From: Maribacter luteus
Lineage (GTDB): Bacteria > Bacteroidota > Bacteroidia > Flavobacteriales > Flavobacteriaceae
Reading direction: 5' to 3'
DNA: 64,000 nt
Assembly (NCBI RefSeq): GCF_009674825.1
Contig: NZ_WKJH01000026.1
Coordinates: 1 to 64,000 of the forward strand
Within the stretch, counting starts at the first letter, position 1. The number at the start of each line of letters is the position of its first letter. A model generated the notes under the pieces. It had not been told where the DNA came from and did no database searches. It saw only the letters and a program-made list of their open reading frames with translations. Below are positions 6,933 to 17,074 of the stretch, piece by piece. The translations under genes and the position numbers were made by a program.

Positions 6933-7289
6933 TCGGTTTATCTAAAGTATCAACGGTGTAGTAACAGCCTTTTTGTAGACATTGGCTACTAATTACAATT
7001 TGCTAGAATCGAAAGGATATTTGGGTTTGTTCACGCAAACGGACTTCAATCTGACACGCCCTTTAGAAAGGTTACTTAGATCAGTCAATTATGTGCAGAA
7101 ACGACAACCCTTTTTATACCGTTTATTTTTAAGAGTTAAATTATCTATGTAAATAACAATCCCATAATAATTTTAGCATTTAGTTATTATTTTAATAATA
7201 ATTACATTATATTTGGTTACCCAATTTGGGCACCCAATCTGGATAACCAATTAATCATAACTAAAATCGAAGCAAATATTATTTTTATT
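6933..7289. other. Intergenic region with promoter of the gluconate locus
   Basis: No gene was seen in the first 270 bases. The distal end (7208-7250) carries a promoter-like box and three operator-like repeats, listed separately. Confidence 0.6.
7208..7250 (+). promoter_or_regulatory. TAnnTTTG promoter box overlapped by three tandem 13-bp operator-like repeats
   Basis: TATATTTG (7208-7215) fits the Bacteroidota -7 element TAnnTTTG. Starting within it are three abutting 13-mers: TTTGGTTACCCAA (7212-7224), TTTGGGCACCCAA (7225-7237) and TCTGGATAACCAA (7238-7250). Their consensus is TTTGGnnAnCCAA, and each contains a small TTGG....CCAA dyad. GntR/FadR-type repressors bind short dyads of this general sort, and such a regulator is encoded at 10546. 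The placement over the start site suggests repression. The regulator assignment is inference. Confidence 0.65.
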
Positions 7290-9149
7290 ATGGGAGTATC
7301 TGGTGTTGGTAAAAGCACTATAGGCTCCTTATTGTCAAAAAAATTAGGTATTCCTTTTTTCGATGGGGATGATTACCATCCTGAGAGTAATATTTTAAAA
7401 ATGTCTAAAGGAGAACCTTTAAATGACAAGGACAGACTGGATTGGCTACGAACTTTGAACCGGCTCGCCGTAAATCAATTAAAAACCAACAGTTGTATAA
7501 TAGTTTGTTCCGCCTTAAAAGAAAAATATCGGGAAATATTAGCTTATTCTATTGAAAGTAAATCAAAATGGGTTTTTCTCAATGGTTCTTTTGAACATAT
7601 ACTCGAAAGAATAAAAAATCGAAAGGGTCATTTTATGCCTGCACATTTGCTAAAATCACAATTTGAAACTTTAGAAATCCCTAAAAATGCCATTGAAATA
7701 AATATCAATCAAACACCCAATAACATTGTGGAAATAATAAAAAACGAGATAATATCCAAATCACAATTTGGTCTCTTTGGATTAGGGGTTATGGGCAAAA
7801 GTCTATGCCGCAACTTAGCAAGTAAAAATTTTAGAATATCGATGTTCAATAGGCATGTTGAAAGTAAGGAAGTGGACGTTGCGGTAAATTTCAAGAACGA
7901 ATTCGAAGAATTATCTACAGCACTTGCCTTTGATGACATTGAATTTTTTGTAAATTCTTTACAGACACCACGAAAAATCATGTTGATGGTGAATGCTGGT
8001 AAAACAATAGACTTGGTTATCGAAGACATCTTGCCATTTTTGTCCGCAGAAGATATTTTAATAGACGGGGGTAATTCTAATTACAATAAAACCAAGGAAC
8101 GGTTTGATTATTTAAAATCTAAAAATATTCATTTTATAGGTACAGGAGTTTCCGGTGGTGAACAAGGAGCTTTAAAAGGCCCATCCATAATGCCGGGAGG
8201 TGATAAAGAGGTTTATGAAAAAGTGAAGCCATTTTTTGAGGCGATAGCGGCCAAAGGTGAAAACAATTTACCCTGTTGCTCCTACATTGGACCTGAAGGG
8301 AGCGGTCATTTTGTGAAAATGGTACATAACGGAATTGAATATGTAGAAATGCAATTATTGGCCGAAGTATATACATTACTAAAAGCATTGGGAAATAATC
8401 CCGATCAAATGGCAGATATTTTAGAGTCTTGGAAAGAAACGAACAGTTATTTATTGGAAATTACGATTGATATCCTTAGAAAAAAAGAAGGTGATGATTG
8501 GTTGATCCATAAAATAATGGATAAAGCTGGCAATAAAGGCACAGGAAACTGGACAACTATTACAACCGCCCAATTAGGGGTACCCAGTACCATGATCGCT
8601 TCTGCCCTATTTTCACGTTATACTTCTTTTTACAAAGATGAAAGGACAGCAGCAAGTATAAATTTTGAAGCAAAAGATAACTCTAAACCTAATATAACCA
8701 ATACCGATATTTTAAAAGCCTATCAATTTGCAAGAATAATGAATCATTATCAAGGTTTTAAATTAATCATAGAAGCATCCAATAGTTATAAATGGGAATT
8801 GAATTTAAGTGAATTGTCTAGAATTTGGACCAATGGTTGTATAATCAGATCTGACCTTATGGTAAATCTGGTCGAAGTTTTTAAATCAACCGACAATTTA
8901 TTGACCAGTGATATAATAATTCAACAGCTTAAGTCTTTAAAACCGAGTATTAAAAAAGTAGTTTCCCAAGGTGTTTTAAACGAGTTGCCAATCCCGAACT
9001 TAAGTGAATCGATTAACTTTTTAAATTGTTTTACAACAGCAAATTCATCAGCAAATTTAATACAAGCCCAACGTGATTATTTTGGAGCCCATACTTATCA
9101 AAGAATAGATGATAAATCTAATAAATTTTATCATACAAACTGGATATAA
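7290..9149 (+). CDS. Gluconokinase - 6-phosphogluconate dehydrogenase fusion
   Basis: This is one 619-residue chain with two enzymes. Residues 1-157 are a gluconate kinase: P-loop GVSGVGKS, FFDGDDYHPESN, GEPLNDKDR, CSALKEKYR and GHFMPAHLLKSQFETLE. Residues 159-619 are a decarboxylating 6-phosphogluconate dehydrogenase: nucleotide fold GLFGLGVMG, GVSGGEQGA, HFVKMVHN with Lys343, GCIIRSDLM and the C-terminal QRDYFGAHTYQR. Together they would take gluconate to ribulose 5-phosphate. The ATG at 7290 leaves out most of the first beta-strand of the kinase. The upstream frame reads IIFI directly before it, so a non-ATG start slightly upstream is possible. The transporter gene follows after 24 bases. 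Confidence 0.92.
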   Translation: MGVSGVGKSTIGSLLSKKLGIPFFDGDDYHPESNILKMSKGEPLNDKDRLDWLRTLNRLAVNQLKTNSCIIVCSALKEKYREILAYSIESKSKWVFLNGSFEHILERIKNRKGHFMPAHLLKSQFETLEIPKNAIEININQTPNNIVEIIKNEIISKSQFGLFGLGVMGKSLCRNLASKNFRISMFNRHVESKEVDVAVNFKNEFEELSTALAFDDIEFFVNSLQTPRKIMLMVNAGKTIDLVIEDILPFLSAEDILIDGGNSNYNKTKERFDYLKSKNIHFIGTGVSGGEQGALKGPSIMPGGDKEVYEKVKPFFEAIAAKGENNLPCCSYIGPEGSGHFVKMVHNGIEYVEMQLLAEVYTLLKALGNNPDQMADILESWKETNSYLLEITIDILRKKEGDDWLIHKIMDKAGNKGTGNWTTITTAQLGVPSTMIASALFSRYTSFYKDERTAASINFEAKDNSKPNITNTDILKAYQFARIMNHYQGFKLIIEASNSYKWELNLSELSRIWTNGCIIRSDLMVNLVEVFKSTDNLLTSDIIIQQLKSLKPSIKKVVSQGVLNELPIPNLSESINFLNCFTTANSSANLIQAQRDYFGAHTYQRIDDKSNKFYHTNWI

Positions 9150-9173: not shown

Positions 9174-10451
9174 ATGCCAATATCCCAAAATAAAACATCC
9201 ATATTAAAAAAAATCATTGCCATCATATTAGGCTTTGGTCCTGGAATCTTTGCTATAGGCTACACCATCGGCACAGGAAGTGTAACGTCTATGATCGTAG
9301 CCGGAAGTAAATTTGGAATGCAGTTATTATGGGTGCTTTTGGTAAGCTGTTTGTTTTCGGGAGTCTTAATGTTTGCTTATGGAAATTACGCTTTGCTCAC
9401 AGGAGAAACCGCACTTTACGGTTTTAAAAAACATTTAAAATTCGGAAAGACCTTAGCAATTTTGATAATTATTGGAATTACGTTCGGGCAATGGAACTCC
9501 TTAATGGGGATCTTAGGTATTTCCGCCAATATAATCTTCGAAATATTAGCCGTTAATTTCGAAGGCTTGGTACCCCTTAAATACGAAATAGTCTTAATTA
9601 CAGCCATAATAATCATAGTCGTTTTCTATTTACTTATGCTGGTTGGAAAATATACTTTTTTTGAGAAGATTTTGGTCATTTTCGTCACCATAATGGGCTT
9701 CTCGTTCATACTTTCCTTGTTCTTTGTCCAACCACTTCCAATAGATGTTGTTAAAGGATTGATACCTACAATACCCAAAGTTCCTGGAGGCAAAATGTTA
9801 GTGGCCGCTTTTGTAGGTACAACCATGGCAGCAGCTACTTTTTTATCCCGTCCACTCTTCGTTAAAGGAAAAGGATGGAATGCCAATAATTTGAAAGAAC
9901 AAAAGAAAGACTCCATAACCGCGGCGATTTTAATATTCATAATAAGCGGTACCATAATGGCAGTTGCATGTGGAGCACTATTTCATCAAGGTAAAGTAGT
10001 AACTGAAGTTTTGGATATGGCCAATACATTGGAACCTGTTGCAGGAAAATGGGCGGTTAGTATATTCTTTTTTGGCGCCTTGAGCGCCGGGTTATCATCT
10101 ATTTTCCCTTGCCTATTAATCGCACCTCTCTTAATCGCAGACTACCAATCCGGAAAGTTAGATACTTCGTCCAGACAATTTAGAATCATAACCGCCTTAG
10201 CATGTTTAGTTGCTTTGATCGGTCCGGCATTTGGGGCGAATCCCATAGAAATTCAAATTTTGTCTCAGGTATTCAATGTATTTGTTTTACCAATAGTGGT
10301 TCTCGGAATCATATTAATGCTAAGCAATAAAAAAGTTATGAAGGGTTATAAGACAAGTACAGGTGTTTATATAGGTTTGTATGCAGCATTGTTCTTTTCT
10401 TTGATTATTTCGTTCAATGGTATATTGGCACTTTTGGAATATTCCGTTTAG
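9174..10451 (+). CDS. NRAMP-like membrane transporter lacking the metal-site motifs
   Basis: The 425-residue protein has about eleven membrane segments and the NRAMP fold signature at the N-terminus (GFGPGIFAIGYTIGTGS). In true NRAMP metal transporters TM1 has DPGN and TM6 has MPH. Here the aligned TM1 stretch reads IGTG (residues 32-35) and TM6 reads MAA (218-220), so the metal-binding Asp, Asn and His are absent. The rest of TM6 and TM7 remains NRAMP-like. It is the second gene of a gluconate-type operon, 24 bases after the kinase/dehydrogenase. Sugar-acid or other non-metal transport is therefore a reasonable guess, not shown. Confidence 0.8.
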   Translation: MPISQNKTSILKKIIAIILGFGPGIFAIGYTIGTGSVTSMIVAGSKFGMQLLWVLLVSCLFSGVLMFAYGNYALLTGETALYGFKKHLKFGKTLAILIIIGITFGQWNSLMGILGISANIIFEILAVNFEGLVPLKYEIVLITAIIIIVVFYLLMLVGKYTFFEKILVIFVTIMGFSFILSLFFVQPLPIDVVKGLIPTIPKVPGGKMLVAAFVGTTMAAATFLSRPLFVKGKGWNANNLKEQKKDSITAAILIFIISGTIMAVACGALFHQGKVVTEVLDMANTLEPVAGKWAVSIFFFGALSAGLSSIFPCLLIAPLLIADYQSGKLDTSSRQFRIITALACLVALIGPAFGANPIEIQILSQVFNVFVLPIVVLGIILMLSNKKVMKGYKTSTGVYIGLYAALFFSLIISFNGILALLEYSV

Positions 10452-10545: not shown

Positions 10546-11238
10546 GTGAAGATTAGTTTAGTAGATAAGAATGCGAATAGGTTGTTCCAAAATGATGTGA
10601 TCTGTAAAATTCGCGATTTGATCAATATTAGAAATTTAGAATATGGAGATAAATTGCCTTCTGAAAGAATCATGTCCGAAAAATTCAATATCAAAAGAAA
10701 TCATATTAGGGAAGCAATAAGGAAGTTGGAGTTTTACGGGGTTCTGAAATCTATGGCGCAAAGCGGTACTATTCTCGCTATTGGATTAACGGGGTTCAAT
10801 GGTATGGTAGATGAAATTATTTCCCTAGACCCCCCATCTTTTGATGAATTGGTAGAAACTAGGATTTCGTTGGAATTAAAAACGGTTTTTCTTGCTTCAG
10901 AGAGAAGGACCGATGCGGATTTAAAGAAGATAAAAGATTCCCTAAACGCCTATAAAGCCCGAATCATTGAAGGCCAAGATTATTTAGAGGAAGATTTATT
11001 GTTTCATTTAGCAATCGCTAAGGCCAGTAAGAACAAAACCCTTTTGACATTAATGCTTTTAATTACACCACCGATTCTTTCAACTTACGAAAGGGATAAA
11101 GTCTGTGAGGGCGATAAAATCGAATCTGAAATCAAAAAGCATGAAAATATTTACTCTGCTATTGCCAATAAGGATCCTCAACTTGCTGAGGAAATGATGA
11201 AAGATCACTTTTTCAAATTATCAAAATACATAGAATAG
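10546..11238 (+). CDS. GntR family regulator, FadR subfamily
   Basis: The 230-residue protein has an N-terminal winged helix (about 15-80) with the GntR signature GDKLPSERIMSEKF and HIREAIRKLEFYGVL. A helical FCD ligand domain (about 95-225) follows, with LFHLAIAKAS and a late HEN...I motif. It starts with GTG (10546); no ATG fits the motif spacing. FCD-type regulators usually sense small carboxylic acids, including gluconate and uronates. It lies between the gluconate genes and the PL7 lyase, 33 bases upstream of the lyase. It is the obvious candidate to bind the triple repeat at 7212-7250. Confidence 0.88.
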   Translation: MKISLVDKNANRLFQNDVICKIRDLINIRNLEYGDKLPSERIMSEKFNIKRNHIREAIRKLEFYGVLKSMAQSGTILAIGLTGFNGMVDEIISLDPPSFDELVETRISLELKTVFLASERRTDADLKKIKDSLNAYKARIIEGQDYLEEDLLFHLAIAKASKNKTLLTLMLLITPPILSTYERDKVCEGDKIESEIKKHENIYSAIANKDPQLAEEMMKDHFFKLSKYIE

Positions 11239-11271: not shown

Positions 11272-12369
11272 ATGGATAAAAAAATCATTAAAACAACATC
11301 AAAATTACTCCTATTAAGTTTGTTTCTAATACATATTGGTTGCAACACCACTCCTAAAAAATCGAGTAATAAAGAAAGTGACAAAACCGTGTACGCTAGC
11401 GACGTTATTCCTTTTTTCAATCATTGGAAATTGATTTTAGGTGACGGCTCCAATGTAGGTTATGCAATAAATTATGAGAACAAGGATTTCTTTTACACCG
11501 TTAATGAAGATAGTATAAATTGGGTAGTTTTCAAAGCACCAAATAGTGGTGAGACACACGGAACCTCGAACAACACTAGAACAGAATTGGCACAAGTTAA
11601 AAAATGGTACCCAAAAACCGCTAACGATAAATTGACCGCTACACTTAAAGTCATGAATGTATCGGCTACGGGTGACGCCCGTGTCGCAGCCTCTCACGCT
11701 GTAGTGGTTGGCCAAATCCATAGTGCAGATAAGCATGAAAACGAACCACTTAAAATATTCTACAAGAAATTTCCGGGCCATACCAAAGGATCCGTTTTTT
11801 GGCACTATGAAATCAACACAAAAGGTGATGATAATTCTAAAAGATGGGATTACTCCACTGCTGTTTGGGGCAATGACTTTTCAGTTGTTGGCACAGAAGC
11901 GAACACTTACCCTCCTGAGCCAAAAGACGGTATTGCCTTAGGTGAGGAATTTACCTATAATATCGAAGTTAAGGATGGTATCATGACCTTGGAATTTATG
12001 AGTGAAGGCCACGAAACAAAAACGTTCACAAAAAATTTGATCGAATCAGAATATATTACGACCGCGGATATTCCAGAGCAAACAAAAAAATTATTTGTGC
12101 CAATTGGTCAAGATGGGGTTGAACTTAAAGAAGCGTACACAGAAGAAGGTTTGTTTTTTAAACTAGGTGCATACAATCAAACAAATGGAAAATCGCCGGA
12201 AGTAAATAGGAATTGGTGTTCTGGTGCAGAAACACATGGGGGAGATATTCAAAAGCAATATGAAGACGGAAACTATGCTGAAGTATGGTTTAAAACAGGG
12301 GAAATTTCCATAAATAAAAATGCAGTTTCAAATGAAGGCTATTTTAATAAAAATGACCATGTCAATTAA
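11272..12369 (+). CDS. Alginate lyase, polysaccharide lyase family 7, lipoprotein
   Basis: The 365-residue protein has a lipoprotein signal (LLLSLFLIHIGC, lipid Cys near residue 24) and one PL7 beta-jelly-roll domain. The three family motifs are present: NNTRTELAQ (Arg103-Leu106), VGQIHS (Gln148-His150) and FKLGAYNQ with Tyr301. These correspond to the R(S/T)EL, QIH and YxKxGxYxQ segments that line the cleft. QIH variants are usually linked with activity on guluronate-containing blocks. It would act at the cell surface, cutting alginate by beta-elimination. A close relative lies at 17261-18328 and the SDR reductase follows. Confidence 0.92.
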   Translation: MDKKIIKTTSKLLLLSLFLIHIGCNTTPKKSSNKESDKTVYASDVIPFFNHWKLILGDGSNVGYAINYENKDFFYTVNEDSINWVVFKAPNSGETHGTSNNTRTELAQVKKWYPKTANDKLTATLKVMNVSATGDARVAASHAVVVGQIHSADKHENEPLKIFYKKFPGHTKGSVFWHYEINTKGDDNSKRWDYSTAVWGNDFSVVGTEANTYPPEPKDGIALGEEFTYNIEVKDGIMTLEFMSEGHETKTFTKNLIESEYITTADIPEQTKKLFVPIGQDGVELKEAYTEEGLFFKLGAYNQTNGKSPEVNRNWCSGAETHGGDIQKQYEDGNYAEVWFKTGEISINKNAVSNEGYFNKNDHVN

Positions 12370-12463: not shown

Positions 12464-13234
12464 ATGAAAAACATTAATAAATTAGTCGGTAAAAATGTCC
12501 TAATAACAGCTGGGGCCCAAGGAATAGGTGAATCCATAACAAAACATTTCATCGATAGTGGAGCCAATGTCGCCATTCACTATTTTTCCAGTGCCGAAAC
12601 TGCGAATCAATTAACCGAATACGCTATTAGTAAAGGACAAAAAGCGGTTGCCATAGGTGGTGACCTAACAAAAGAAACAGATGCGAATGCATTAATTGAA
12701 GATACCGTAGCGTCTTTAGGTGGATTGGACATATTGATAAATAACGCAGGCTCACTTGTTTCCCGTAAATTACTCAGTGAGATGGAGGCTGATTTCTGGC
12801 ACAAGGTAATGGACATTAACCTAACATCCATGATGTTCGTAACTCGGGCAGCATCTCCTTATTTAACTCAAAATGAAAATAGTAGCATTGTTAATTTGGC
12901 TTCACTCGCCGGGCGAAAAGGAGGCCATCCAGGTTCTTTAGCTTATTCTACCAGTAAGGGAGCCATCCTCACATTCACCAGGGCACTGTCCTCAGAATTG
13001 GGCCCCCAAGGTGTAAGGGTCAACGCTGTTGCTCCGGGACTTATTCTAGGCACCTCATTTCATAACACACATACAACAAAAGAATCTGCCGACGAAACAA
13101 CGGCCGGCATACCTATCAAAAGAGCTGGTAACGCTAATGATGTGGCACGGGCAGTAGTATATCTAGCCTCTGAATACGACGGTTTTATTACTGGTGCTAC
13201 GCTCGATATCAATGGTGGCGTCTACAATATGTAA
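12464..13234 (+). CDS. SDR family oxidoreductase, possible DEH reductase
   Basis: The 256-residue short-chain dehydrogenase has the cofactor motif TAGAQGIG in place of TGxxxGIG, NNAG near residue 91, a catalytic serine in NLASLAG, and Tyr161-Ser-Thr-Ser-Lys165. PG near residue 188 and the C-terminal LDINGGVYNM complete the classic SDR/FabG-like pattern. Alginate lyases finally yield 4-deoxy-L-erythro-5-hexoseulose uronate (DEH). In alginate users an SDR reduces DEH to 2-keto-3-deoxygluconate. Directly following a PL7 lyase (94-base gap), this gene is a good candidate for that step. Sequence alone cannot exclude another substrate. Confidence 0.82.
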   Translation: MKNINKLVGKNVLITAGAQGIGESITKHFIDSGANVAIHYFSSAETANQLTEYAISKGQKAVAIGGDLTKETDANALIEDTVASLGGLDILINNAGSLVSRKLLSEMEADFWHKVMDINLTSMMFVTRAASPYLTQNENSSIVNLASLAGRKGGHPGSLAYSTSKGAILTFTRALSSELGPQGVRVNAVAPGLILGTSFHNTHTTKESADETTAGIPIKRAGNANDVARAVVYLASEYDGFITGATLDINGGVYNM

Positions 13235-13620: not shown

Positions 13621-13929
13621 GTGAAAAGAAGTTTAGAACATATTACCTACGGAAAAGATACAGAAGCTTTGGCGAAATTCGCCAAAGCCTTAGGGCATCC
13701 TACCCGAATAGCGATTTTAAAACATCTAGAAAATCAATCATGCTGTTTTACAGGGGATTTGGTCGATGTATTCCCATTGGCCCAATCAACTATTTCCCAG
13801 CACCTTAAAGAGTTGAAAAACGCTGGTCTTATCCAAGGTGAATTAAAACCGCCAAAAATTAAATATTGTATAAACCAAGAGAACTGGCAGACAGCCAAAA
13901 CTATGTTCAAAGATTTTTTTGAACGATAA
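13621..13929 (+). CDS. ArsR/SmtB family repressor
   Basis: The 102-residue winged-helix protein has AKALGHPTRIAILKHLENQ, then a Cys pair (SCCF, about residues 40-41), the recognition helix AQSTISQHLKELKNAGLI, and the wing PPKIKYCIN. The Cys pair sits near where ArsR proteins hold their metalloid site, and a third Cys is in the wing. The start is GTG at 13621, which gives the usual ArsR length. It begins an operon of six genes. Identical operator-like dyads lie before it and just after it, so it probably represses both itself and the genes downstream. Confidence 0.88.
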   Translation: MKRSLEHITYGKDTEALAKFAKALGHPTRIAILKHLENQSCCFTGDLVDVFPLAQSTISQHLKELKNAGLIQGELKPPKIKYCINQENWQTAKTMFKDFFER

Positions 13930-13943
13930 TTTTTTAATAATCC

Positions 13944-13961
13944 TATCGTCTATTTGCGATA
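13944..13961 (+). promoter_or_regulatory. ArsR-type operator copy 2
   Basis: TATCG-TCTATTTG-CGATA differs from copy 1 by one central base (A to C). It starts 14 bases after the arsR stop and lies 16 bases before the thioredoxin gene. The centre TCTATTTG is one base off the TAnnTTTG box, so a second, weaker promoter is possible. Confidence 0.55.
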
Positions 13962-13977
13962 AACTAAATTTTAAGTC

Positions 13978-14214
13978 ATGAGTAAAGTAATTAAAATCCT
14001 AGGTACAGGTTGCCCTAAATGTCAATCTTTGACCGGTGTAGTTAAAGAAGTGGTAAATGAAAACAACATTGACGCCACTATTGAAAAAGTTGAGGATATC
14101 ATGGATATCATGAAATACAATGTAATGTCGACCCCTGCTTTGGTGATTGATGATGTGGTCACCATCAAAGGACGTATACCCTCAAAAGATGAAGTACTGG
14201 CCCTATTGAACTAA
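13978..14214 (+). CDS. Small redox-active disulfide (thioredoxin-fold) protein
   Basis: The 78-residue protein has GTGCPKCQ (CxxC at residues 12-15) at the end of the first strand. MSTPALVIDD gives the cis-Pro loop and GRIPSKDEVLALL the last helix. This is the compact thioredoxin type of MTH895-like proteins, often encoded beside metal or arsenic-linked permeases. It is cytoplasmic, with no signal peptide. It lies between the ArsR gene and the permease, 45 bases from the permease. Confidence 0.88.
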   Translation: MSKVIKILGTGCPKCQSLTGVVKEVVNENNIDATIEKVEDIMDIMKYNVMSTPALVIDDVVTIKGRIPSKDEVLALLN

Positions 14215-14259
14215 AGGGTAAAACCATTGTAAATCTTATTATTCGTAAATCCATTTAAC

Positions 14260-15237
14260 ATGTTTGATTGGGTACAACATTTGGCAGATTGGTTTGTCTA
14301 TGATGTATTGAAGTTAGGCCAAGGGGAACATTTATCCGAGGCCTTGAACTTTTTCATTTATGACACCATCAAGATTTTGATCTTACTTTTCGTGGTTATA
14401 TTTTTTATGGGAATAGTAAATAGTTACTTTCCCATAGATAAGGTCAAAAATTATCTATCCAGAAATAAATTATACGGATCGGAATATCTTATGGCAAGTC
14501 TTTTCGGTACAGTTACACCTTTTTGTTCCTGTTCCTCGGTTCCCTTGTTCATTGGTTTCGTAAGTGGTGGAATTCCCCTTGGGGTTACTTTCGCTTTCTT
14601 GATTACCTCTCCCCTTGTTAATGAAGTGGCCGTTGGCTTATTTATTGGACTTTTCGGAGTTAAAATGACCCTGATCTATGTATTCAGTGGTGTTTTGCTC
14701 GGCACTATTTCCGGAATGGTCCTTCAAAAATTAAAATTGGAATCCTATTTAACTCCTTGGGTTAAAGACATTTTGGCCAATGCCCAAAAAGAACAAGATG
14801 CTTTTATAGCCGACAAATCATCCTTAAGGGCCAGATTACCCATAATTTGGGCCGAAGTACTTAAAATTCTTAAAGGAATCGTTCCTTATGTAATCGTGGG
14901 AATTGCTATTGGCGGATTGATGCACGGTTACATTCCAAAAGGTTTTTTTGAAAAGTACATGGCCAAAGATAACCTGTTCGCGGTGCCGATAGCCACAATA
15001 TTGGCCGTTCCCATGTACTCGAATGCATCCGGTATACTCCCGGTAATTCAAGTTCTGGTATCCAAAGGCATCCCTATAGGAACTGCAATTGCCTTTATGA
15101 TGGGCGTCGTAGGCCTATCGTTGCCAGAAGCCATGCTCTTGAAAAAAGTAATGACCTTAAAGCTTATAGGAATTTTCTTTGGAGTCGTAACCCTTTGTAT
15201 CATCATTTCAGGCTATATATTCAACATTATCTTATGA
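14260..15237 (+). CDS. Permease of the DUF318/UPF0718 (ArsP-like) family
   Basis: The 325-residue inner-membrane protein has about eight to ten helices. The first half carries TPFCSCSSVPLFIGF (cysteines near residues 88 and 90), the hallmark of this permease family. The second half carries AVPMYSNASGILPV. Some relatives (ArsP) export trivalent organoarsenicals through such a cysteine pair, and others have no known substrate. It is followed by a gene whose ATG overlaps its TGA stop (ATGA at 15234-15237), so translation is probably coupled. Confidence 0.87.
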   Translation: MFDWVQHLADWFVYDVLKLGQGEHLSEALNFFIYDTIKILILLFVVIFFMGIVNSYFPIDKVKNYLSRNKLYGSEYLMASLFGTVTPFCSCSSVPLFIGFVSGGIPLGVTFAFLITSPLVNEVAVGLFIGLFGVKMTLIYVFSGVLLGTISGMVLQKLKLESYLTPWVKDILANAQKEQDAFIADKSSLRARLPIIWAEVLKILKGIVPYVIVGIAIGGLMHGYIPKGFFEKYMAKDNLFAVPIATILAVPMYSNASGILPVIQVLVSKGIPIGTAIAFMMGVVGLSLPEAMLLKKVMTLKLIGIFFGVVTLCIIISGYIFNIIL

Positions 15238-15911
15238 AATCGATAAAGTACATTCTCTTATTATTCTTGACAGTTAGTTGCAATACAACAAAAGATACGC
15301 TCAATACCACCCATAACGCCAAGGCCATTAAGGTTTTGGATACCGATTTTTCCAAAGGAAGATTAACACTGGAACATAAAATAACCTTGGAAGACCTAGA
15401 AAAATTCCATGGTCATTTATGCGACGGACTCATTCAAGGTTTTTTAGGAATACAAGAGGGTTTAAAATTGCTTTATCCGTCCGGGATCATTGACCGAACA
15501 AACACCAGAATCATTAGTAACAGTTCACCTTGTTTAACAGATGTTGCCATATATATTACAGGTGGCAGATATCAGTACAATTCATTTTATGTTGATGATT
15601 CGATTCAGGATGCATTTTATATCCTTCAGAGAAAAGACAATAATAAAACCGTGAAAATTAAATTGAAAAAAGGTGTAAAACCATTGGAAATAGATGAATT
15701 GGGTGCAAAAGCGGTAAAAGGGGAGTTATCACCCTGTGATTTGGACAAACTCAAAAACCTTGAGGACAAATTTTCCGGGAAACTATTATCATCCAATCCA
15801 AAAATAATTTTTGAAATAACAGAAATATCCAATTTCGATTGGAAACCCCAATTAAGAAACGACGATACAAAAATAGATATCCTAAATAAAAACAAATCAA
15901 AATGTCAATAA
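15234..15911 (+). CDS. FmdE-like lipoprotein
   Basis: The ATG at 15234 overlaps the permease stop and begins a lipoprotein signal (MKSIKYILLLFLTVSC, lipid Cys16), giving 225 residues. The body has FHGHLCDGLIQGFLG and NSSPCLTDVAIYITGG, the His/Cys motifs of the FmdE family. That family was first named from formylmethanofuran dehydrogenase operons but is common without one, and probably binds a metal. As an exported, lipid-anchored version next to a permease and thioredoxins, it may hold or deliver the transported metal or metalloid. That role is inference. Confidence 0.8.
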   Translation: MKSIKYILLLFLTVSCNTTKDTLNTTHNAKAIKVLDTDFSKGRLTLEHKITLEDLEKFHGHLCDGLIQGFLGIQEGLKLLYPSGIIDRTNTRIISNSSPCLTDVAIYITGGRYQYNSFYVDDSIQDAFYILQRKDNNKTVKIKLKKGVKPLEIDELGAKAVKGELSPCDLDKLKNLEDKFSGKLLSSNPKIIFEITEISNFDWKPQLRNDDTKIDILNKNKSKCQ

Positions 15912-15928
15912 TTAAAAACTCCATCAAC

Positions 15929-16366
15929 ATGAAAACAATCAAATTCTTAACAGCAATGGCCATTATTCTGGCATTCACTTCTTGTAAAGGCCAAAATGAA
16001 AGCAAAACAACAGCTAGTGACCAAGCAATTTCAAAAATAGAGGTACTGGACTTTCATTCTACACATAGATGCATGACATGCAATGCGATCGAGGCCAATA
16101 CCAATTTTACTTTGAACACGTATTTCCCCAATGAATTAAAAGAAAGCAAGATAACGTTCCAGGTAATTAACGTAGATAAGGAAGAAAATGAGGCAATAGC
16201 CGAAAAATTCCAAGCCGCCGGCACATCATTATTCCTGAACGTAATTAAAAACGGAAAAGAAAAACAGATTGATATGACCGATTTTGCCTTTATGAAAGGA
16301 AATGACCAAGAGGCATTTTCCAAAGAGTTGAAAGCAAAAATAGAATCGGAACTTAAAACGCTTTAA
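15929..16366 (+). CDS. Thioredoxin-like lipoprotein with CMTC motif
   Basis: I start at the ATG 15929, since MKTIKFLTAMAIILAFTSC is a lipoprotein signal (lipid Cys19); an ATG 27 bases earlier only adds a polar tail. The 145-residue protein has a thioredoxin-like arrangement: IEVLDFHSTHRCMTCNAIE (CxxC near residues 51-54), then FQVINVDKEEN and GTSLFLNVIKNG. It would face the periplasm and probably passes electrons to or from the membrane protein encoded next, whose ATG directly follows its TAA stop. Confidence 0.78.
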   Translation: MKTIKFLTAMAIILAFTSCKGQNESKTTASDQAISKIEVLDFHSTHRCMTCNAIEANTNFTLNTYFPNELKESKITFQVINVDKEENEAIAEKFQAAGTSLFLNVIKNGKEKQIDMTDFAFMKGNDQEAFSKELKAKIESELKTL

Positions 16367-17074
16367 ATGGATTATTTACAATCCTTTTTAGAACAATACA
16401 ACATACCCGTTTTATCAGCATTTGTACTCGGACTAATGACAGCCATTAGTCCGTGTCCTTTGGCAACCAATATTACAGCAACCGCTTTTATCTCGAAAAA
16501 CATCTCAAGCAAACGAAAGGTGTTCCTTAGCGGAATCTTGTATTCGTTGGGTAGGGGGTTTAGCTACACCGTAATAGGTCTTATCCTATATTTTGGGGCC
16601 AGCAAATTCCATATTGCCAGATTTTTTAACCAAAATGGGGAAAAATACTTGGGGCCACTTTTAATAGTGATCGGATTGATCATGCTGAATATCATAAAAT
16701 TGAATTTCTTGGGTACTTCTAATTTTCAAGAGAAATTATCAGACAGGTTCAAGGATAAAGGGCTTTTAGGTTCTTTTCTAATCGGTGTGGTCTTTGTCTT
16801 GGCCTTTTGCCCCTACAGTGGTGCCCTATTTTTTGGCATGTTGATTCCCATGACGATTTCCTCTGCGGACGGACTTTTTTTACCCATTATATTTGCTTTC
16901 GGAACGGGGCTTCCCGTTATACTTTTTACATATTTAATGGCTTTTGCCTTGGCCAAGGTCGGTGTTTTCTTTAATACCATTACAAAAATCGAAAAGGTCA
17001 TGCGTACCGTTGCCGGAGTGGTTTTCATCATCACAGGTGTCTACTATGTTTTTATTTTCATTGGTGTTTTTTAA
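16367..17074 (+). CDS. CcdA-type membrane electron carrier / ArsG-like permease
   Basis: The 235-residue protein has six predicted membrane helices in two related halves, each with a key cysteine after a helix start: AISPCPLATN (residue 30) and FCPYSGALFF. This is the pattern of CcdA/DsbD transmembrane domains, which carry electrons from cytoplasmic thioredoxin to the periplasm. Closely similar proteins in arsenic-type clusters are named ArsG-family permeases. As the last gene of the operon with a cytoplasmic CPKC protein and an exported CMTC protein, a thiol relay across the membrane is plausible. Confidence 0.8.
   Translation: MDYLQSFLEQYNIPVLSAFVLGLMTAISPCPLATNITATAFISKNISSKRKVFLSGILYSLGRGFSYTVIGLILYFGASKFHIARFFNQNGEKYLGPLLIVIGLIMLNIIKLNFLGTSNFQEKLSDRFKDKGLLGSFLIGVVFVLAFCPYSGALFFGMLIPMTISSADGLFLPIIFAFGTGLPVILFTYLMAFALAKVGVFFNTITKIEKVMRTVAGVVFIITGVYYVFIFIGVF

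Follow-up and report, generated by a model that had tools for sequence, protein, structure and literature searches.

What does a transporter of the NRAMP family carry when its metal ligands have been replaced and its gene lies in a sugar-acid operon? This question is raised by a gene of Maribacter luteus (assembly GCF_009674825.1) in the stretch of DNA analysed here, positions 1 to 64,000 of contig NZ_WKJH01000026.1 (64,000 nucleotides; hereafter, the window). A preliminary description of this DNA had recognised an NRAMP signature, noted that the metal ligands were replaced, placed the gene in a sugar-acid operon and proposed gluconate or another carbohydrate acid as the substrate.

The NRAMP signature was borne out. 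The protein matched Pfam Nramp (PF01566) along almost the full length of the profile (215.2 bits, E 1.8e-63, cut-off 29.8), which places it in the NRAMP fold family. A phmmer search against solved structures (E up to 10) returned 10 matches, all named divalent metal cation transporters and headed by the Mg2+ transporter EleNRMT (7e-16), and an NCBIfam match labels the window protein, as NRAMP-family proteins generally are, a divalent-metal transporter. An AlphaFold model was weak (pLDDT 49.7, pTM 0.52, from a 33-sequence alignment in which the other 32 members are 81-88% identical to the window protein) and served as a fold check alone, all statements on the pocket being based on alignments. 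With this model, the first 17 Foldseek matches were NRAMP-family entries, EleNRMT being tied at the top, and amino-acid carriers of the APC superfamily ranked after them.

The position first described was also confirmed: the gene lies 24 bases 3' of a gluconate kinase/dehydrogenase gene and 94 bases 5' of an FCD-type GntR regulator (Table 1). The kinase and dehydrogenase are fused (GntK-Gnd), and the fusion matched the NCBIfam gnd equivalog at 520.1 bits (cut-off 426.7) and therm_gnt_kin at 168.5 (cut-off 113.75). The PL7 lyase gene, absent from the preliminary account, turned out to be key to reading the locus. Further downstream, positions 13621-17074 hold an ArsR-type regulator, a permease, small redox/lipoprotein genes and a DsbD-like protein, which by eye looks like an arsenic or metal efflux cluster.

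Table 1. Features of the transporter operon and its upstream region (window positions).
Feature	Position	Strand	Details	Basis
Triple operator-like array	7213..7250	.	TTGGTTACCCAA / TTGGGCACCCAA / CTGGATAACCAA, 13-bp steps; 39 bp upstream of the first operon gene	
Gluconokinase (GntK/IdnK type) fused to decarboxylating NADP+ 6-phosphogluconate dehydrogenase	7290..9149	+	619 aa	Pfam, NCBIfam
NRAMP-related transporter	9174..10451	+	ATG start, 425 aa	PF01566 profile, tree
TM1 motif G33-T34-G35-S36 replacing D-P-G-N	9270..9281	+	identical in 116/116 branch sequences	phmmer, MAFFT
TM6 A219-A220-A221 replacing M-P-H	9828..9836	+		phmmer, MAFFT
Arg226, aligned with DraNramp His237 (TM6b)	9849..9851	+		alignment
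GntR/FCD regulator	10546..11238	+	GTG start; 52% identity to the FCD regulator of the alginate PUL in the same genome	Pfam, NCBIfam
PL7-type alginate lyase (Alginate_lyase2)	11272..12369	+	lipoprotein signal by eye	Pfam PF08787, 171 bits
SDR oxidoreductase	12464..13234	+	in the family draw, confined to genomes with the transporter	Pfam, NCBIfam

Phmmer and MAFFT agreed in aligning residues 33-36 (GTGS) with DPGN and A219-A220-A221 with MPH, and neither canonical motif is present in the window protein. The replacement of the metal ligands therefore stood, although the register first given for it did not, as both 'IGTG' and 'MAA' begin one residue too soon. This loss is common to a whole branch of related proteins and not private to the window gene. 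All 116 distinct branch sequences carry GTGS, with Gly at the position of the TM1 aspartate (0/116 retain it) and Ser at that of the asparagine, and all have Arg at the position of DraNramp His237, where His is found in 29/29 DPGN proteins and 7/7 PxpT-type proteins, the latter having GPGT in TM1. At the DraNramp Asp131 position, Gln was found in 95/95 sequences of clade I, the part of the branch that holds the window protein, and Glu in 14/21 sequences of clade II. The TM10 Gln (window Gln365, DraNramp Gln378) is retained in 114/116. According to the accessible text of the studies concerned, the TM1 aspartate is invariant across SLC11 and transport is strongly impaired when it is mutated (PMC8806188), and D131, E134, H232 and H237 are the proton-path residues on TM3 and TM6 of DraNramp (PMC6398981). 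In the window protein these four have become Q106, S109, A221 and R226, so the DraNramp proton path is not conserved. Of the DraNramp mutants examined together, H237Q alone failed to sample the outward-open state (PMC6398981, accessible part), so Arg226 may, by analogy, be a gate and not a substrate contact.

To define the branch, 204 NRAMP-like ORF matches were reduced to 155 distinct sequences, of which 154 (330-700 aa) were aligned and assigned by best BLAST hit, giving 116 branch sequences (95 in clade I, 21 in clade II); the 29 canonical rows exclude one that was matched to an ORF of locus L194 other than the Nramp gene. The tree comprised 65 rows cut at 460 aa, namely clade I (the window protein, a random 12 at >=78% identity and 10 others), the 21 clade II sequences, 7 PxpT-type and 10 canonical proteins, one very divergent paralogue (L004) and 3 solved structures. 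Clade I (23 rows) was supported at 100/99 and clades I and II together (44 rows) at 97/96, and the canonical, EleNRMT/NRMT and PxpT rows all fell outside. The deep placements of this tree are unsure because long branches meet (L004, EleNRMT and others), and 'clade II' is a name of convenience, since support for its unity is low (37/56). Nramp-related proteins that are paraphyletic to canonical ones and devoid of DPGN/MPH have been described (PMC12873925, accessible part).

We next considered the gene context of clade I, using the best 80 of 257 confirmed stretches, mostly from Flavobacteriia with a few other Bacteroidota, with flanks of up to 8 kb on each side. We use PL6, PL17, KdgF and KdgK for what we take to be the identities of Pfam chondroitinase B-like, heparinase/alginate-lyase-like, cupin and PfkB-family proteins, respectively; the examples of mannose-6-phosphate isomerase, MFS and phosphofructokinase-like proteins scored below the NCBIfam cut-offs. 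Among the 80 loci, which are not independent because many come from related species, we found PL7 in 70, GntK-Gnd in 69, SDR in 61, PL6 in 57, SusC in 55, PL17 in 48, a KdgF-like cupin in 48 and an alginate-type MFS permease in 3. At least one alginate marker (PL7, PL6, PL17 or KdgF-like) was present in 73/80 and a marker or GntK-Gnd in 77/80, and the transporter lay directly 3' of GntK-Gnd in 68/80, at a median gap of 21 bp. Loci L054 and L152 very probably belong to one contig (195,066 bases), as do L024 and L151 (1,071,969 bases).

With GTGS in 116/116 sequences and sugar-acid markers in 77 of these 80 loci, the earlier notion of a metal-ligand-free branch in a sugar-acid context largely held, relatives outside such a context, which the preliminary description had named as speaking against it, being limited among the 80 to L024, L054 and L073. 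Two of these three, L054 and L073, in which the transporter lies away from lyase genes, still carry an operator pair of the alginate type (described below) about 170 bp directly upstream of the gene, with one mismatch per site. L024, in genome G070, has neither operator nor sugar neighbours and counts against the sugar-acid reading. Three further loci (L029, L039, L040) consist of a minimal trio of GntK-Gnd, transporter and SDR, free of alginate markers in the flanks examined and of an operator pair within 3.5 kb upstream.

The same association was seen across the family. In a draw of 149 genomes from 148 genera, clade I (threshold >=69% identity) occurred in 18 and a PL17-type lyase in 30. 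PL17 was present in 16/18 genomes with clade I vs 14/131 without (Fisher p 1.5e-11, related genomes treated as independent), and one of the two clade I genomes without PL17 (G104) has PL6, PL7 and KdgF-like genes in the same 19-kb gene run. Fourteen of the 30 PL17 genomes are without the transporter, which counts against the sugar-acid reading.

Of the SDR and GntK-Gnd, the SDR is the stronger partner of the transporter in this draw. Homologues of the window SDR (E <=1e-90) occurred in 13/149 genomes, namely in 13/18 with clade I and 0/131 without (p 5e-15, Fisher, related genomes treated as independent). In G002 and G129 the SDR gene lies on another contig than the transporter, and its operon there includes PL7 and has an operator pair. 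The G070 copy is about 150 kb from the transporter and has no operator pair. GntK-Gnd is the weaker partner because, while copies at >=66% identity were confined to 9 clade I genomes, copies at 57-60% occur in G143, G077 and G096 without clade I, and more distant ones in further genomes. The window SDR shares 37% identity with that of the MFS operon on contig C8 of the same genome, which we took as FlRed-type from its operon order (PMC4306948, accessible part). By eye, the window SDR has no acidic residue following beta strand 2, the feature by which FlRed is recognised as NADH-dependent, suggesting that it prefers NADPH; the substrate proposed for it below is likewise a judgement by eye.

More distant relatives lie beside other enzymes. 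Sister proteins (69-74% identity, 7 loci) end operons with a PfkB-family kinase, a phosphofructokinase-like gene and/or a KDPG aldolase, with GntK-Gnd absent; six of these seven loci also hold an MFS permease and an SDR, and the seventh begins at a contig end. A 60% relative adjoins PL6 and PL7, a 54% relative a 2-keto-3-deoxygalactonate kinase and an Eda-like aldolase, and a 50% relative (L225) a metallophosphatase-like gene at a contig end.

The array upstream of the operon ties it to the main alginate PUL of the genome. It consists of three 12-bp TTGGN4CCAA sites, the third with one mismatch. Genome-wide, pairs of such sites with at most one mismatch were found in this array and at two sites of the C8 alginate PUL (C8:123247-123284 before SusC, C8:128538-128562 before PL6) and nowhere else, with 0.04 pairs expected at the window's composition. 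Matches with two mismatches were dropped as chance, because at up to two mismatches a backwards control pattern had 6 matches vs 8 for the motif on one strand. In the relatives (best 80 of 257), pairs with at most one mismatch per site occurred in 76/80 loci, 207 pairs vs 0.0 expected from mononucleotide shuffles, and the nearest gene within 450 bp was SusC for 84, PL6 for 28, PL17 for 22 and GntK-Gnd for 18. In 64 of these 80 loci a pair preceded the transporter within an uninterrupted run on one strand, and none was seen upstream in the flanks examined for the other 16. Pairs were also found in 13/14 alginate loci of related genomes that lack the transporter and in 4/7 sister loci, the remaining 3/7 having none. 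There were none in 30 canonical loci (only about 4 kb each vs 15-20 kb for most others), in 21 clade II loci or in the 3 loci of 50-60% relatives, including the one beside PL6 and PL7 (L223). The pairs missing from sister loci, from the 50-60% relatives and from upstream of the transporter in 16/80 loci count against the sugar-acid reading. Since alginate loci of transporter-free genomes carry the motif and canonical and clade II loci do not, it belongs to alginate control in this family. Consequently, the window operon appears to be part of the alginate regulon, and the regulator of the putative operator is likely of the AusR type; in Zobellia, AusR is a GntR repressor acting on alginate genes (PMC8286568, PMC8073546, accessible parts). 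The term 'gluconate operon' is then too narrow, because the operon appears alginate-regulated and the sister loci are without GntK-Gnd; gluconate is a candidate substrate but is not singled out. The C8 PUL encodes PL6, PL17, KdgF-like, SusC/D, FCD regulator, MFS permease, SDR, PfkB-family kinase, PfkA-like and KDPG aldolase proteins. With an MFS permease in this PUL and no Nramp-like gene in the 38 kb covered there, the transporter is not a simple substitute for the permease.

Direct neighbours of clade II genes (33 proteins at 20 of the 21 genes) included GH2 (6), xylose-isomerase-like (4), amidohydrolase/NagA-like (4), mannose-6-phosphate isomerase cupin (3), glucosamine-6-phosphate isomerase family (2), SDR (2), GH88 (2), UxuA (1) and NAGidase (1) proteins, along with a histidine kinase and a HerA-like ATPase; clade II partners other than sugar genes also include an asparaginase (L232) and a histidine kinase (L237). 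No metal repressor was present in the 24 families listed for these 33 neighbours. Around canonical DPGN genes (39 neighbour proteins at 26 of 29 genes), at least 15 DtxR-type repressors were counted among the 25 families listed out of 29, and PxpT-type genes (10 neighbour proteins at 6 of 7 genes) had 6 PxpA. Neighbour families thus differ by pocket type: DtxR with DPGN, PxpA with PxpT-type and carbohydrate genes with the branch. PL17 was found in 4/9 genomes with clade II (p 0.08), and clade II is therefore not an alginate clade. In six genomes of one Bacteroidota family (L226-L231; G329, G235, G286, G282, G306, G211), a clade II gene lies in a conserved PUL-like locus, in one copy of which (L227) Pfam found GH2, GH20, a sodium-solute symporter and a sugar-isomerase-like protein.

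Besides the window gene, three Nramp-like genes of M. luteus itself pass the Pfam cut-off, and none of its Nramp-like genes found by this profile search encodes a DPGN-type protein. L001 has a GPGT motif and adjoins pxpA. L003 (C18:171774-175841) is a clade II paralogue with GTGS and the TM6b Arg and a 39-41% relative; it adjoins a mannose-6-phosphate isomerase-like gene, a pairing repeated in two other genomes (L159, L161). L004 (C15:201211-205257) is very divergent (33 bits, TM1 MAIGTSH, end branch length 7). A fifth match, L005, belongs to a 591-aa protein that by eye resembles a sodium-solute symporter. A ZIP-family permease gene outside the window (C26:117045-117704) offers a possible metal route without a DPGN-type MntH. 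A plasmid collection contained relatives at 25-36% identity only, in 16 records; the 36% relative (CP054241.1:807187-808418, on an 834-kb record named 'E. coli') has no listed gene, and this record is possibly a mis-assigned sequence of another bacterium.

We consider it probable that the transporter is an inner-membrane importer of an alginate-derived sugar acid, and not of a metal. Fold family, ligand loss, branch, operon, operator-like array and SDR co-occurrence are read from the sequence, and from them we infer substrate class, direction and mechanism. A precedent is PxpT, which is NRAMP-like and on which growth with 5-oxoproline depends (PMC13274462). Our model suggests that the lyases would yield uronate monomers, one of which, poorly handled by the usual MFS permease of the main alginate PUL, would be taken up by the transporter. 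The SDR would reduce the imported uronate and GntK-Gnd would convert the product to ribulose-5-phosphate, so that SDR, GntK and Gnd could together form a redox-balanced route from L-guluronate via D-gluconate to ribulose-5-phosphate. Within the probability given to the class, L-guluronate is the best single guess, and a tentative one. By its Fischer projection, L-guluronate reduced at C1 becomes D-gluconate, on which the fused kinase acts, and the NADPH probably consumed by the SDR would be restored by Gnd. The guess is weakened because lyase cleavage leaves unsaturated residues and saturated guluronate, as a minor product, should be scarce. The purpose of a second importer is left unexplained, since an MFS permease is already encoded in the alginate PUL, the type named as the inner-membrane importer of Bacteroidetes in the accessible text of PMC7874173 and PMC12472053.

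Two other substrates of the same class come next, each with a smaller share of its probability than L-guluronate. One is D-gluconate, imported by a plain permease that feeds GntK-Gnd, as the preliminary description proposed. The 68 relatives (best 80 of 257) directly 3' of GntK-Gnd and the marker-free trios of L029, L039 and L040 fit this, but the sister proteins lie with PfkB-family kinase, KDPG aldolase and/or phosphofructokinase-like genes and no GntK-Gnd, and gluconate uptake alone would leave the alginate-type operator and the co-occurring SDR unexplained. The other is the unsaturated monouronate/DEH or KDG, for which the transporter would be a second importer backing up the MFS permease. 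Apparent membership of the alginate regulon, the sister group within operons of MFS, SDR, kinase and PfkA/Eda, and the 54% relative beside a 2-keto-3-deoxygalactonate kinase and an Eda-like aldolase all point this way; however, DEH is presumably handled by the MFS/SDR/kinase/Eda operon of the same genome, and GntK-Gnd would be left without a role.

Outside this class, import of a divalent metal (Mn2+, Mg2+ or Ca2+) by a transporter co-produced with alginate enzymes that depend on metals or set calcium free seems unlikely on the sequence evidence. Mannose-6-phosphate isomerase, UxuA and NagA, found beside some clade II genes, are metalloenzymes; T216/A219 of TM6 fits the TxxA half of the NRMT signature, Gln365 is kept in 114/116 and the genome yielded no DPGN protein. 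In the accessible literature, overexpression of YcsG, which is DPGN-free by its kinship to PxpT, raised cellular Mn (PMC10448178), and the only text found, among the matches listed, to report an Nramp gene as part of an alginate system, a supplementary figure legend on Alteromonas alginolytic systems, labels it a metal-ion transporter (PMC6431674). Against this, the TM1 aspartate is missing from 116/116 branch sequences and the Met, His232 and TM3 acids are also lost, apart from the Glu at the Asp131 position in 14/21 of clade II. Metal repressors were found neither among the 33 clade II neighbours (24 families listed) nor in the scanned or matched gene clusters common to six or more of the 80 clade I loci (best 80 of 257), the operator-like array is common to the transporter operon and the alginate locus, and the ZIP permease provides an alternative metal route. 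Less probable again is import of an amino acid, 5-oxoproline or another non-carbohydrate solute, in the manner of PxpT. No relative with a known organic substrate is nearer than PxpT, and the weak structure model also matched, after the NRAMP entries, APC-superfamily amino-acid carriers, but the genome already has a separate PxpT-type gene beside pxpA, the tree parts the two groups and the operon contains no amino-acid gene. Least probable of all, and very improbable, is export of a toxic intermediate or surplus monomer: it is compatible with the sequence, and the alginate PUL carries its own importer, but the NRAMP relatives in the cited papers import their substrates and the enzymes of the operon are catabolic.

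Import of an alginate-derived sugar acid, if true, would add a third substrate class to NRAMP, after metals and, probably, 5-oxoproline, and the two pocket motifs would allow the origin of NRAMP metal selectivity to be tested. A carbohydrate-controlled branch would also correct many annotations as divalent-metal transporters. For marine carbon cycling, it would reveal an overlooked inner-membrane step and a possible second alginate branch via gluconate and the pentose-phosphate pathway. We hold as a wider and doubtful possibility that the NRAMP superfamily contains a broad Bacteroidota lineage of carbohydrate or sugar-acid permeases, marked by GTGS and the TM6b Arg, whose loci, judged from their neighbours, would serve the use of alginate, hexosamines, mannose and mannonate; together with PxpT, such a lineage would suggest that paraphyletic NRAMP-related proteins of older origin transported organic solutes and that metal transport is derived. 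Among the literature matches listed, from a coverage that leaves out most subscription papers, there was no paper on a carbohydrate-linked Nramp branch.

Loci of this kind share with flavobacterial alginate PULs under an AusR-type repressor the PL7/PL6/PL17-type lyases, KdgF-like cupin, SusC/D, FCD regulator and operator-like array. They differ in their transporter, the published importer being of the MFS type and an NRAMP-type one going unmentioned in the accessible parts of PMC7874173 and PMC12472053. With canonical MntH/NRAMP proteins (DraNramp, BfraNramp 10ky), the window protein shares the fold family and the TM10 Gln, whereas these have the DPGN/MPH metal site and, in the Bacteroidota genes examined, DtxR-type repressor neighbours. 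EleNRMT (7qia, Mg2+) is similar as the leading phmmer match, as a joint top Foldseek match of the weak model and in TxxA of TM6 (T216, A219 in the window protein, for TxxA/T in NRMTs), but it keeps the TM1 Asp in DxxG (PMC8806188, accessible part), where the window protein has GxxS, and falls outside the branch on a long tree branch. PxpT/YcsG likewise belongs to the Nramp family and is encoded in an organic-acid catabolic operon, and the PxpT-type rows analysed here have no TM1 Asp; in the accessible literature, pxpT is required for growth of Corynebacterium glutamicum on 5-oxoproline and is under a GntR repressor, metal transport not being excluded by its authors (PMC13274462), and Bacillus subtilis YcsG has been argued to import Mn2+ (PMC10448178). 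PxpT-type proteins differ in having GPGT in TM1, P-Y in TM6, His at the Arg226 position and a pxpA neighbour, and form a separate clade (100/99). The window gene has neither the pxpA neighbour nor GPGT, and its paralogue L001 has both.
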